64,000 nt of DNA from Acidobacteria bacterium 13_1_20CM_3_53_8 (GTDB taxonomy: Bacteria; Acidobacteriota; Blastocatellia; Pyrinomonadales; Pyrinomonadaceae): positions 1-64,000 of the forward strand of contig MNJR01000047.1 of the NCBI GenBank assembly GCA_001920415.1, written 5' to 3'. Within the stretch, counting starts at the first letter, position 1; every line of letters starts with the position of its first letter. The notes under the pieces were generated by a model, which ran no database searches, was not told the origin of the DNA, and saw only the letters and a program-made list of their open reading frames with translations. The position numbers were made by a program, and so were the translations under genes. Shown here one piece after another: positions 4,821 through 62,226 of the stretch.

Positions 4821-4943
4821 GGTAAAAGTAAAAAGGTAAAAGGCAAAAGTGTGGACACGCCTGCGGCGTGAATTAAAGATTAAAAAATCAGAGGCGAATG
4901 CTTTGTCCTAACTTTTGCCTTTTTACTTTTATCTTTTGCCTTA
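4821..4943. repeat. inverted repeat, AAAGGCAAAAGT word family (copy 1)
   Basis: The left arm 4821-4850 and right arm 4911-4943 are complementary tandem units of GGTAAAAG/AGGCAAAAG type. The apex contains a small hairpin (CACGCCTGCGGCGTG) and an AT-rich stretch also found in copies at 42682 and 62094. The left arm starts immediately after the rimO stop. Confidence 0.88.
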
Positions 4944-5217: not shown

Positions 5218-5832
5218 ATGATGAAGAGAATGAAGGAGACCAGCGACGAACTGAACCCGCAGATAGCTCATGCCACAGTTGCTGTCGCGCCGCGTAGTTT
5301 GAGTTTCAAAGACTATGTGGCTCTGGCCTTCTCGACATGGGGCGTGGGCTTTATTCCATTCGCGCCGGGCACATGGGGTTCTGCTGTCGGCGTGGGAATT
5401 TACCTGCTGTTGCGCTCGTACATCTCGCGCCCGATCATTTCTATTCAAAACCTCAATGCTGTTCAGGCGGAAGCTCTTAACACAACTATAAGCCTCTCTG
5501 CTGTGATGCTGGTCTCGTTCGTAGGCGTGTGGGCAGCGTCGCGCGCAGAAAAATTTTTCAAAAGAAAAGACCCGGGCGCTGTCGTAGTTGATGAAGTGGC
5601 CGGGCAGTTAGTGACGTTTCTGGTTATCCCGCTCAGCCGCGACTTGAACCTTTGGACAATCGCAGCGGGGTTCCTGCTTTTCCGAGCGTTCGACATCTGG
5701 AAACCTTATCCTGCGCGCAGACTCGAATCTCTGGAATCTGGACTGGGAATTATGGCTGACGACATAGTGGCGGGCGCGTACGCGGCTGCGGTTCTGTCCG
5801 TAATCATCTTGTTGACATCCTCCCCGCATTAG
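5218..5832 (+). CDS. pgpA: phosphatidylglycerophosphatase A
   Basis: PgpA dephosphorylates phosphatidylglycerol phosphate in the inner membrane. The family hallmarks are present: the N-terminal FSTWGVGFIPFAPGTWGS segment, the acidic motif DPGAVVVDEVAGQ, and the C-terminal FDIWKPYPARRLE with GLGIMADDIVAGAYA. There are four hydrophobic segments. The start is uncertain: ATG 5218, 5221 and 5230 are in frame, and none has a strong ribosome binding site. The last residues (after VLSVIILL) are encoded by an IS200/IS605-like right end, so the native C-terminus has been replaced by a few foreign residues. All catalytic motifs lie upstream of this. Confidence 0.9.
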   Translation: MMKRMKETSDELNPQIAHATVAVAPRSLSFKDYVALAFSTWGVGFIPFAPGTWGSAVGVGIYLLLRSYISRPIISIQNLNAVQAEALNTTISLSAVMLVSFVGVWAASRAEKFFKRKDPGAVVVDEVAGQLVTFLVIPLSRDLNLWTIAAGFLLFRAFDIWKPYPARRLESLESGLGIMADDIVAGAYAAAVLSVIILLTSSPH

Positions 5833-6115
5833 AAATGCGAGGATTCCATCTCGAAGGATGGTAGGTTCGTGCTTCATCTGGGAGCTATCTCCCTACGTTG
5901 GGGACTTCCCTCAACAACGCCCTAGTTAAAGTTTCAAAGAGCCGCACAGGTGACTTCCACAGGCTGATGGGCACTGTTAGCACAAAGCCTGTCGTATTGA
6001 ATCTGAGTGTAACACACGTTGAGGCGCACAGTTGAAAGCATGTGCGCGGTTGCCACAATTCATCTCCGGCATGAATGCACGGAGTCTTCTTGTGAGTTCT
6101 GATAAAATCGTTCAT
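5811..6115 (-). mobile_element. IS200/IS605-family right-end remnant (tnpB tail / omegaRNA-like region)
   Basis: GTTGACATCCTCCCCGC at 5811 and the imperfect hairpin CCCGCATTagaAATGCGAGG (5823-5842) look like the subterminal hairpin end of IS605/IS1341-type elements. On the minus strand, upstream of it, a short open frame (stop near 5885; ...LTRALLREVPNVGR) resembles the tail region such elements carry. No transposase domain remains. The 5833-6115 stretch holds no other gene. In intact elements this part encodes the omegaRNA, so a decayed omegaRNA is possible. The assignment rests on pattern recognition only. Confidence 0.45.
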
Positions 6116-6135: not shown

Positions 6136-6360
6136 ATGCAGGAAGAGAAAGACCCAAAGTCTGCCGTGAATATCAACGATTCGACCGAGAGTAAAGACCC
6201 CAAGTCAGACGCCACCAGCGCTGATACGCTGAGCGATGTGGAAGAGAGCGAGAAGACTTCCAAGACTACGGACAGCGAGACCGGCACAAGCTCGAACGCG
6301 CCGTCGCCCGATGGTCAGTTCGACGAGCCTACACGCCGCGACGATGCAGGGCCAATGTGA
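6136..6360 (+). CDS. small acidic, disordered hypothetical protein (74 aa)
   Basis: ATG 6136 follows GGAGG (6121-6125) at good spacing, which supports translation. The product is almost entirely Asp, Glu, Lys, Ser and Thr, with two DPKS repeats (KDPKSAVN, KDPKSDAT). It has no hydrophobic core and is presumably disordered and cytoplasmic. No family is recognised. It lies between the IS remnant and a repeat cluster. Confidence 0.5.
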   Translation: MQEEKDPKSAVNINDSTESKDPKSDATSADTLSDVEESEKTSKTTDSETGTSSNAPSPDGQFDEPTRRDDAGPM

Positions 6361-6365
6361 GGAGA

Positions 6366-6470
6366 ACAGTTTTCAGTTTTTAGTTTTTAGTTTTCAGAAA
6401 GGTACGAATCTAACGCTCGTTGCGTTCTGAGCATGTGCGTCTTTCACTGAAAACTAAAAACTGAAAACTT
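6366..6470. repeat. inverted repeat, CAGTTTTCAG word family (copy 1)
   Basis: The left arm (6367-6398) is made of TTTTCAGT/TTTTTAGT units. The right arm (6446-6470) is the complementary GAAAACTGAAAACTAAA type. The apex of about 45 nt differs from other members. It directly adjoins the nested palindrome that follows. Confidence 0.85.
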
Positions 6471-6684
6471 AGGAGTTACGCAGTTGACAGAAAAGCGTAA
6501 GCCTTGTCAGTACCGCCTGCGGTAGCGGGCGGGTCTGTTAGCAAAGTCAAAAGTAAAAAGGTAAAAGTAAAAAGTGAGAAGAAGCCAATCTTTTTATTTT
6601 CCTTTTGCCTTTTTACTTTTGACTTCTTCACCCGCCCAGCTTAAGCAGGCGGTACTGACCTGTTCGTTCAACTGCGTAACTCCT
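6471..6684. mobile_element. nested three-layer palindrome (MITE-like)
   Basis: Three inverted repeats lie concentrically. The outer layer is a perfect 17-bp pair (AGGAGTTACGCAGTTGA at 6471-6487, complement at 6668-6684). The middle layer is a GTCAGTACCGCCTGCGGTAG arm at about 6507-6536 with its inverse at about 6630-6659. The inner layer is AAAGTAAAAAGG-type arms (6545-6573 and 6590-6623). The whole sits between the small acidic gene and serA, ending 13 nt before the serA start. The layering looks like repeated insertion at the apex of an existing palindrome. Confidence 0.8.
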
Positions 6685-6697
6685 AAAACTATCTTTT

Positions 6698-8293
6698 ATG
6701 AAAATTTTTGTTTCTGATGATGTGAGCGAGAGCGGGCTTGAGCCGCTCTTAGCCGCAGGTTTCGCTGTGGAGAAGAGAACCGGGCTTACTCTGGCGGAGT
6801 TGCTAGAGGCGATCAGTGATTGCGATGGGTTGATAGTCCGTAGCGAGACGAAGGTGACCGCAGAGTTGATGGACGCTGCGCGTAGTTTGCGCGTGGTTGG
6901 TCGCGCGGGCGTAGGCGTGGACAACATTGACGTGGCGTCTGCTACGGCGCGCGGCGTAGTCGTGATGAACGCGCCGGACGGAAACACAATCACGACTGCT
7001 GAACATACAATCGCGCTTCTAGTTGCGCTCGCGCGGCGAGTTCCGCAGGGCAACGCTAGTTTAAAGTCTGGGAATTGGGAACGAAAAAAATTCATAGGCG
7101 TTGAGCTTCAGGGCAAAGTTCTGGGGATCATAGGACTCGGTCGCATAGGCCGCGTTGTTGCCAGCCGCGCTCGCGCGTTCGGAATGAACATCATCGCTTA
7201 CGATCCGTTCGTCGCTCCCGAACAGGCGCGAGACCTTGAACTTGAGATTGTTCCGCTCGATGAAGTATTCGCGCGCGCAGACTTCATAACCGTTCATACG
7301 CCGCTCACAGCCGAAACACGCGGTCTTATAGGCGCGGAAGCTTTCGGGAAGATGAAGCGCGGTGTGCGTATCATCAACTGCGCTCGCGGTGGCCTTGTTG
7401 ACGAGCGCGCTCTTTATGAAGCAATCAAAACCGAACGGGTAGCAGGCGCAGCTCTGGACGTTTTCGAGCAGGAACCGCCGCCCGCAGATCATCCGCTTCT
7501 TTCGCTCGACGAAGTCATAGCCACGCCGCATCTGGGAGCTTCAACGAAAGAGGCGCAGGAAGGCGTTGCAGTCACCGTTGCCGAACAGATGCGCGACTAT
7601 CTTTTAACGGGCGCGCTTCGCGGTGCTGTGAACGTTCCAGCATTGGGCACGCAGGAGTTGCACATCTTGCAGCCTTATACTGTTCTGGCCGAAAGCCTCG
7701 GAAGATTTCAGGCGCAATTGGTTGACGAAGCAGTGCGCGAAGTGCGTCTTGAGTACGCGGGCGAGATAGCGGAGATGGACGCCGCGCCAGTGACGCGCGC
7801 TTTTCTGGCAGGCTTGCTGCGCGACGTGAGCGCACGCGTGAATGTAGTCAACGCATTTTTAATCGCAGAAGAACGCGGCATCGCAGTGACCTCTTCTTAC
7901 AAGCGCACGGGCGGCGAATTTTCACCAGCGATTAGAACGAGCGTCGTCACATCGGGCGGCGAACAGACAGTTTCGGGCACGCTCTTCGGCTCCGTCGGAC
8001 AGGATGCAAAGGGGCGCATCACAGAGATAAACGGCTTTCACATAGAAGCTATCCCCAACGGCCACATGCTCTTGATGCGCAGCCGCGACGTTCCCGGCGT
8101 CATAGGTCGCATAGGCACAATCCTTGGCGAACGCGGCGTCAACATCAGCCGCTTTCATCTAGGCCGCAGAGAGCGCGGCGGCGAAGCAATCTCCGTCATA
8201 GAGATTGACGCGCCTCTAGACCGCGACTCGCTCGAAGCATTACGAGCATTCGAGCATGTTATTTCAGCGAGACAGATTGATCTTGATGCGTAA
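6698..8293 (+). CDS. serA: D-3-phosphoglycerate dehydrogenase
   Basis: This is the first enzyme of serine synthesis; it oxidises 3-phosphoglycerate with NAD. At 531 residues it is the long form. It has a substrate/NAD-binding dehydrogenase core with VGRAGVGVDNID, the Rossmann loop GIIGLGRIGRVVASRA, the NCARGG motif and a conserved HLGAST. An intervening ASB-like domain follows, then a C-terminal ACT domain (about residues 455-531: MLLMRSRDVPGVIGRIGTIL) that in relatives senses serine. The ATG is chosen from the family N-terminus (MKIFVSDDVSESG). No clear ribosome binding site precedes it, as a palindrome ends just upstream. Confidence 0.96.
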   Translation: MKIFVSDDVSESGLEPLLAAGFAVEKRTGLTLAELLEAISDCDGLIVRSETKVTAELMDAARSLRVVGRAGVGVDNIDVASATARGVVVMNAPDGNTITTAEHTIALLVALARRVPQGNASLKSGNWERKKFIGVELQGKVLGIIGLGRIGRVVASRARAFGMNIIAYDPFVAPEQARDLELEIVPLDEVFARADFITVHTPLTAETRGLIGAEAFGKMKRGVRIINCARGGLVDERALYEAIKTERVAGAALDVFEQEPPPADHPLLSLDEVIATPHLGASTKEAQEGVAVTVAEQMRDYLLTGALRGAVNVPALGTQELHILQPYTVLAESLGRFQAQLVDEAVREVRLEYAGEIAEMDAAPVTRAFLAGLLRDVSARVNVVNAFLIAEERGIAVTSSYKRTGGEFSPAIRTSVVTSGGEQTVSGTLFGSVGQDAKGRITEINGFHIEAIPNGHMLLMRSRDVPGVIGRIGTILGERGVNISRFHLGRRERGGEAISVIEIDAPLDRDSLEALRAFEHVISARQIDLDA

Positions 8294-21290: not shown

Positions 21291-21425
21291 CAAAAGGCAA
21301 AAGTAAAAAGGCAAAGGAAAGTCAGAAGGTAAAAGTAAAAAGGCAAAAGTGCGGACAAAAGCAGTTTAATTAAATATTGGTTTCAGCCTAATCCCTTTTG
21401 CCTTTTACCTTTTGACTTTTGCCTT
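21291..21425. repeat. inverted repeat, AAAGGCAAAAGT word family (copy 2)
   Basis: A long left arm (21291-21350) of AAAAGGCAAAAGT units faces a right arm at 21393-21425. The apex GCGGACAAAAGCAGTTTAATT...GGTTTCAGCC is shared with the copy at 23168 and partly with 37722. The right arm reaches the purC stop codon. Confidence 0.85.
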
Positions 21426-23167: not shown

Positions 23168-23296
23168 AAAGTCAAAAGGTAAAAGTAAAAAGGCAAAAGT
23201 GTGGACAAAAGCAGTTTAATTTAAAGAATGGTTTCAGCCTTATCCCTTTTGCCTTTTACCTTTTTACTTTTACCTTTCATCAGGCGGTACTGACTT
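23168..23296. repeat. AAAGGCAAAAGT inverted repeat (copy 3) with attached half of the GTCAGTACC repeat
   Basis: The left arm 23168-23200 and right arm 23245-23277 are complementary. The sequence then runs directly into CAGGCGGTACTGAC (23281-23294), a lone right arm of the GTCAGTACCGCC family with no left partner. The gap 22993-23423 holds no other gene. Confidence 0.8.
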
Positions 23297-61786: not shown

Positions 61787-62098
61787 ATGGCGACAAGCGC
61801 CGAATGGCACGAGAACTATGACAAGATGAGCGACGAAGCGCTCAACTTTTCGAGGGCAATTAAATCTGTTCAGGAAGAGCTTGAGGCTGTTGACTGGTAC
61901 AACCAGCGCGCGCAGGCTACACAGGACGATCAACTTCGCCGCATACTCGAACACAACCGCGACGAGGAGATTGAGCACGCCACTATGATGCTAGAATACC
62001 TTCGCCGCATGAATTCAACCTTCGACAAGAATTTTCGTACCTACCTCTTCACAGAAGGCGACATCACGGAGTTAGAAGAGAAGGAAGAGGGAAGGTAA
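61787..62098 (+). CDS. encapsulated-ferritin-like protein (EncFtn) without targeting peptide
   Basis: 103 residues. Helical core EELEAVDWYNQRAQA and LEHNRDEEIEHATMMLEYLRRMN contain the conserved iron ligands (the two Glu and the ExxH of the ferroxidase site). FRTYLFTEGDITELEEKEEGR matches the EncFtn end up to TEG-IT. Known members go on to a short LGIGSL-type encapsulin-targeting tail; here the protein stops within a repeat, and no encapsulin gene is next to it. EncFtn forms annular decamers that oxidise iron. GAGGAGACCGGAAAC precedes ATG 61787. Confidence 0.85.
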   Translation: MATSAEWHENYDKMSDEALNFSRAIKSVQEELEAVDWYNQRAQATQDDQLRRILEHNRDEEIEHATMMLEYLRRMNSTFDKNFRTYLFTEGDITELEEKEEGR

Positions 62099-62226
62099 AA
62101 GTAAAAAGTAAAAAGGTAAAAGGCAAAAGTGAAGACAAAGCATTCACCCCTTATTTTTAATCTATAATTCACGCCTGCAAGGCGTATCCACACTTTTGCC
62201 TTTTGCCTTTTTACTTTTTACTTTCT
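62094..62226. repeat. inverted repeat, AAAGGCAAAAGT word family (copy 7)
   Basis: The left arm 62094-62130 contains the ferritin-like gene's stop; the right arm 62190-62226 contains the end of the converging racemase-like gene (ESKK and stop). The apex is the reverse of the copy at 4821 (AATTCACGCCTGCAAGGCGT), so the element is inverted relative to that copy. Confidence 0.9.

Follow-up and report, generated by a model that had tools for sequence, protein, structure and literature searches.

A nested palindrome upstream of serA in an acidobacterial draft genome as a probable composite of three dispersed repeat families

Immediately upstream of a serA gene in Acidobacteria bacterium 13_1_20CM_3_53_8, three inverted repeats lie one inside another, and their concentric order raises the question of how such a stack is built. 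The source is a 6.1-Mb draft genome (155 contigs, 95.9% complete); the window is the whole 64,000-nucleotide stretch of DNA that was analyzed, positions 1-64000 of contig C97. An earlier note, made from the letters of this stretch, read the order as three repeat families inserted successively at the hairpin apex and took it for a recognizable insertion specificity. The three layers are indeed present and concentric, at 6470-6685 (216 bp), between a small gene (6136-6360) and a serA-type D-3-phosphoglycerate dehydrogenase gene on the forward strand (6698-8293; orthologues in 20 relatives, 46-81% identity). The 17-bp outer inverted repeat is exact at 17/17 positions (6471-6487 / 6668-6684) and extends to 18 bp when the terminal T/A is included (6470-6487 / 6668-6685). 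Within it lie the middle repeat, GTCAGTACCGCCTGC..., at 6506-6534 / 6630-6659, and the inner repeat at 6544-6572 / 6597-6625, whose 29-nt arms are 93% complementary. When the region is folded as DNA, it reaches -76.6 kcal/mol, compared with -30.1 ± 4.0 kcal/mol for shuffled sequences (z = -11.6; 0/200 as stable), and its parts are repeated well beyond expectation in the window: four copies of the full middle arm (0 expected) and 18 copies of an inner 13-mer (0.07 expected). We consider it likely, with a probability of roughly three in four, that the stack arose by core exchange and chance landing as a non-autonomous composite mobile element, in which known kinds of element are combined in a new way. 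It is curious but mostly ordinary mobile-DNA nesting that can be read mechanistically.

The outer layer is a 216-bp MITE bounded by the terminal repeat (TIR) TAGGAGTTACGCAGTTGA at 6470-6487 / 6668-6685. Direct reading of the flanks reveals a 5-bp target-site duplication (TSD), AAACT, at 6465-6469 and again at 6686-6690 on the forward strand, a feature overlooked in the earlier note. Between the TIRs and the middle layer lie two spacers read on the forward strand, a long one (CAGAAAAGCGTAAGCCTT; 6488-6505) that is conserved across copies with different cores and a short one (CTGTTCGT; 6660-6667) delimited by copy comparison, which together mark subtype A of this family, here termed outer1. The 17-bp terminal repeat gave 58 fuzzy matches genome-wide and its reversed control pattern none; paired TIRs are mostly 132-136 bp apart, and 199-216 bp apart in nested copies. 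Perfect TSDs flank 18 of 25 complete outer1 copies (11 of 5 bp and 7 of 6 bp), compared with 0.7% (5-bp) and 0.3% (6-bp) when the left flank of one copy was paired with the right flank of another. An integron attC reading of the outer repeat was dropped, since the attC core-site consensus is not matched.

At least 104 stretches, spread over many phyla of bacteria and archaea, carry exact copies of the outer TIR; the named matches include Pyrinomonadaceae and other Acidobacteriota. Among them is a 1138-bp Methanosarcina insertion sequence (L222), present as a single full-length copy only, which has the exact TIR TAGGAGTTACGCAGTTGA, a 5-bp TSD, and an open reading frame matching the IS701_2 transposase model NF049921 (300 bits, cut-off 250). 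No NF049921 IS701-type transposase was found in the 95.9% complete draft, so the source of the outer layer's mobility is deduced from other species. Given the TIR and TSD shared with an IS701-coding element and a draft genome without that transposase, we assign the outer layer, on sequence comparison, to the MITEs of an IS701-type insertion sequence and claim it only as a non-autonomous derivative. It resembles such MITEs (NF049921) in its identical TIR, 5-bp TSD, and short transposase-less interior; it differs in that the cognate transposase is absent and the interior is a REPIN-like core. All outer1 copies seen in this genome have a REPIN between their TIRs, the one exception being a decayed copy of 103 bp (L079), and copies consisting of the outer layer alone occur only in other phyla or genera. 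The same TIR bounds MITEs across many phyla (L143-L222). An unrelated palindrome, usually near the centre, is carried by 25/55 such copies, many of which share one genome, compared with a shuffle maximum of 2/55. The palindromic cargo inside these elements includes CGCAAAG, GGGCGGTTCG, heptamers, and others.

The middle layer belongs to a different class of repeat. GTCAGTACCGCCTGC occurs 300 times in the genome, mostly in inverted pairs (15-mers, 146 forward and 154 reverse), making up a REPIN-like element of about 150 copies per genome. Each REP half is a small imperfect hairpin (CCGCCTGC-GGTA-GCGGGCGG); in the stack, the left REP (6506-6534) reads on the forward strand, and the right REP (6630-6659), with the variant head GCTTAAGCTGGGCGGGT, reads on the reverse strand by direct reading and copy comparison. 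A RAYT-like gene encoding 169 amino acids sits between two REP pairs at C23:1983-2486. Its product matches Pfam Y1_Tnp (26 bits), and its best NCBIfam match is REP_Tyr_transpos (25.6 bits, E 9e-6), below the cut-off of 80. The closest homologues, in six other genera (L354-L359; 58-82% identity), have inverted GTCAGWACC REPs on both sides, and in two of them (L355 and L356) the gene itself takes the position of the REPIN loop, with one single REP immediately on either side; inverted GTCAGWACC REPs were absent around more distant RAYT-like homologues.

The defining RAYT arrangement is a gene flanked by two inverted REPs with a GT(A/G)G head (PMC2817692). Because the REP head here is GTCAG, which departs from that classical definition, we do not file the middle layer as a classical GTAG REP (PMC2817692); judged by sequence, it is REPIN-like, and the gene arrangement is the defining RAYT one with a different REP head. 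REPINs with RAYTs (PMC3116915, PMC2817692) share with it the inverted REP doublets, the less conserved spacer, the REP-flanked HUH/Y1 gene, and the copy number of about 150. It differs from them in its GTCAG head, in a RAYT-like protein that falls below the NCBIfam threshold, in loops that hold other palindromes, and in the many examined copies that ride in MITEs.

Inside the REPs, a recurring 95-nt REPIN loop (6535-6629) contains the inner palindrome, with arms built of heptamers in tandem, AAAAGTC, AAAAGTA, and AAAAGGT (AAAAGTN/AAAAGGN). A survey of 800 kb drawn from contigs C1, C24, C44, C97, and C142 yielded 278 strong inverted repeats and none in the shuffled control; 156 of the 278 had heptamer arms, from several unrelated families, and the CAGTTTT family alone contributed 26 palindromes with arms of at least 24 nt. 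The heptamer families seen in the sample were CAGTTTT, AAAAGGN, GGATTTT, AGTCTGG, AGTGATA, GGGATGA, and ATGGTAA. An apex like GAAGCGAAATGCTTTTA seems common to several of them, and examples in the window lie at 4824-4930, 21299-21420, 23181-23271, and 62097-62218. Described bacterial heptamer repeats, such as the direct repeat TAACTGA (PMC4679880) and others (PMC4692102), are likewise intergenic tandem 7-bp units, but here the units form both arms of long palindromes and belong to several unrelated families in one genome. We found no literature description of a large class of heptamer-armed palindromes. Nor did the literature on nested dispersed repeats or heptamers in cyanobacteria and on nested MITEs with IS701 yield the present arrangement, and searches by repeat strings returned incidental matches only.

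A fourth palindrome, overlooked in the earlier note, marks the site itself. It has CAGTTTT-type heptamer arms of 24 nt that are 96% complementary (6368-6391 / 6446-6469), and adjoins the left side of the stack without being concentric with the three layers. It was at the right end of this palindrome that the nested element landed. The outer MITE entered the 3' edge of a heptamer palindrome already present just upstream of serA and duplicated AAACT, and the serA ATG lies 7 bp past the right TSD. The stack is absent from the orthologous gap before serA in two relatives, G007 and G010, in both of which the upstream small gene is conserved. In G007, where serA is conserved as well, the gap is free of palindromes; in G010 (L338 1350-1500) it contains an unrelated heptamer palindrome (GTAGTCAGTAGGCAG...). 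Such absences would be expected for a later insertion, though both relatives belong to other genera. Set beside window positions 6360-6469, the G010 gap looks as if heptamer palindromes recur at the 3' end of the small gene. Farther upstream, the window contains the sequence GTTGACATCCTCCCCGC...GCGAGGATTCC (5812-5860), which we take to resemble the end of IS200/IS605-type elements.

Are the layers separable? Each is a dispersed family of its own, as the earlier note held, and they are not always found together: the middle and inner layers each occur alone, and the middle layer is carried by two outer MITE families. The second of these, outer2, has the TIR TAGCGGTTCTCACTTG and a TA duplication. 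Among 73 distinct REPINs examined, 28 lay in an outer1 context, 27 in an outer2 context (mostly this second family, with some placed there solely on a loose match of the flank), and 18 stood alone. A REPIN loop measures about 16 nt, or about 37 nt, or is a heptamer palindrome from one of three families, and these classes are spread over outer1-A, outer1-B, outer2, and stand-alone REPINs. The stack's own 95-nt loop is found, with the same junctions, in all four settings. Loop junctions (CTGTTAGC...CTTC) are identical across different outer elements, the junctions between outer layer and REP are unchanged, and five loop types are found both ways round within a single outer context. Since identical loops with identical junctions occupy different outer elements in both orientations, core exchange is needed; independent insertions would have had to strike the same base repeatedly. 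We infer from this distribution that cores were probably exchanged and inverted via the identical REP arms. The earlier proposal of successive insertion consequently stands as far as the nesting goes and fails as the whole story, the shared junctions and the two orientations pointing to exchange. A single loop can be followed in this respect: it lies inverted inside otherwise near-identical outer elements at C1:11041 and C24:116473, with others like it.

An alternative explanation could be that the stack is one fixed foldback element whose three layers co-evolved. The whole stack does recur, with a 96% identical copy in another context at C142:147033 and further full copies that are 80-85% identical. 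Against this, the layers also exist in other combinations, the middle and inner ones by themselves, and the outer layer contains at least five other core types, so the stack is not one fixed unit; this reading is refuted by the separate occurrences, and we give it almost no chance. It is also improbable, to our minds, that the stack grew in place, by template switching at a quasi-palindrome that copies arm onto arm and thereby mirrors any insert. Such growth would fit the near-identity of arms within an element (in the CAGTTTT class, a mean of 0.65 mismatches, with 14 different arm sequences among 26 copies) and the flipping of loops, yet it leaves unexplained the TSD-bounded outer MITE and the recurring identical layer junctions, and arm identity was partly selected by the detection method.

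The remaining rival builds on the apex specificity proposed at the outset: the layers would have been inserted successively at hairpin apexes by transposases preferring exposed single-stranded loops. The concentric order it sets out from is real, and there is precedent: the axis of symmetry of a REP hairpin is the insertion site of ISPsy8 (PMC1525189). Moreover, some MITEs lie in palindrome loops, of the heptamer kind or another (L073, L052, L310, L314, and L127), and heptamer palindromes of several families occupy REPIN loops here and in genomes G001, G005, G007, and G012. For a genome-wide check with both MITE families, we rebuilt the empty sites of 25 outer1 and 43 outer2 insertions (n = 68) by rejoining their flanks. 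At a threshold of 15, 6/68 insertion points fell in a palindrome loop (8.8%), 8/68 in an arm, and 54 in neither; random intergenic points gave 8.0% loop and 10.8% arm, and random intergenic TA sites 9.2% and 11.8%. No loop enrichment was found among these 68 insertions (binomial P = 0.54; same at thresholds 12, 15, and 20), a sample in which enrichment above roughly twofold would probably show and a smaller one could escape, and the relative distance of the insertions from the palindrome centre was that expected by chance (Mann-Whitney p = 0.46). What outer2 does prefer is a sequence motif, CCAC-TA-AATCACAC, used by 13/43 insertions (e.g., L282, L283, L288, and L291) compared with 24/6330 TA sites, and this motif is part of the arm of another palindrome family rather than of its apex.

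For the heptamer palindromes in REPIN loops, the overall density of 1.26 per intergenic kb predicts 0.84 in the sampled loops, where roughly one independent event was seen; they occur there at about the general intergenic density. The stack itself lies beside the CAGTTTT palindrome and not in its apex. As in ISPsy8, IS1397, and IS621 (PMC1525189), a mobile element is found within a palindromic repeat, but those elements have a real target specificity, whereas here loops are hit at the chance rate. For the two MITE families, the genome-wide check went against apex specificity, and we regard apex insertion as an unlikely origin of the stack.

We return to the composite reading, under which a history can be proposed. 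On a few occasions, ordinary chance insertion would have brought heptamer palindromes into REPIN loops. Inserts between REP arms could survive and amplify, because both mobility signals stay intact, which inserts into an arm could not; such survivorship bias would favour concentric composites. The REPIN loop would also be the place of the RAYT gene in the autonomous form. Thereafter, the identical 29-bp REP arms may have served as handles for recombination or template switching, through which cores moved and flipped between elements that differ in their outer layer. Such an exchange, inside an existing outer-MITE/REPIN unit, probably built the stack, which would then have moved as one 216-bp unit to its present site.

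Concentric nesting alone is no evidence for apex targeting once the density of intergenic palindromes is counted, and the heptamer-armed palindromes, 156 in 800 kb, are a more open question than the nesting. In a wider and rather doubtful reading, palindromic mobile elements would form an exchange system, their identical hairpin arms allowing unrelated outer elements to trade and invert cores. The unrelated, usually central palindromic cargo within IS701-type TIRs in several phyla would then hint at a possible general process, such as template switching or single-stranded loop invasion, that places palindromes centrally in foldback elements. For the biology of short bacterial repeats, the stack indicates that they can turn modular: the REP pair acts as a cassette frame with room in its loop for a transposase gene, a short spacer, or a foreign palindrome, and DDE-type MITEs unrelated to the RAYT in turn carry this frame.
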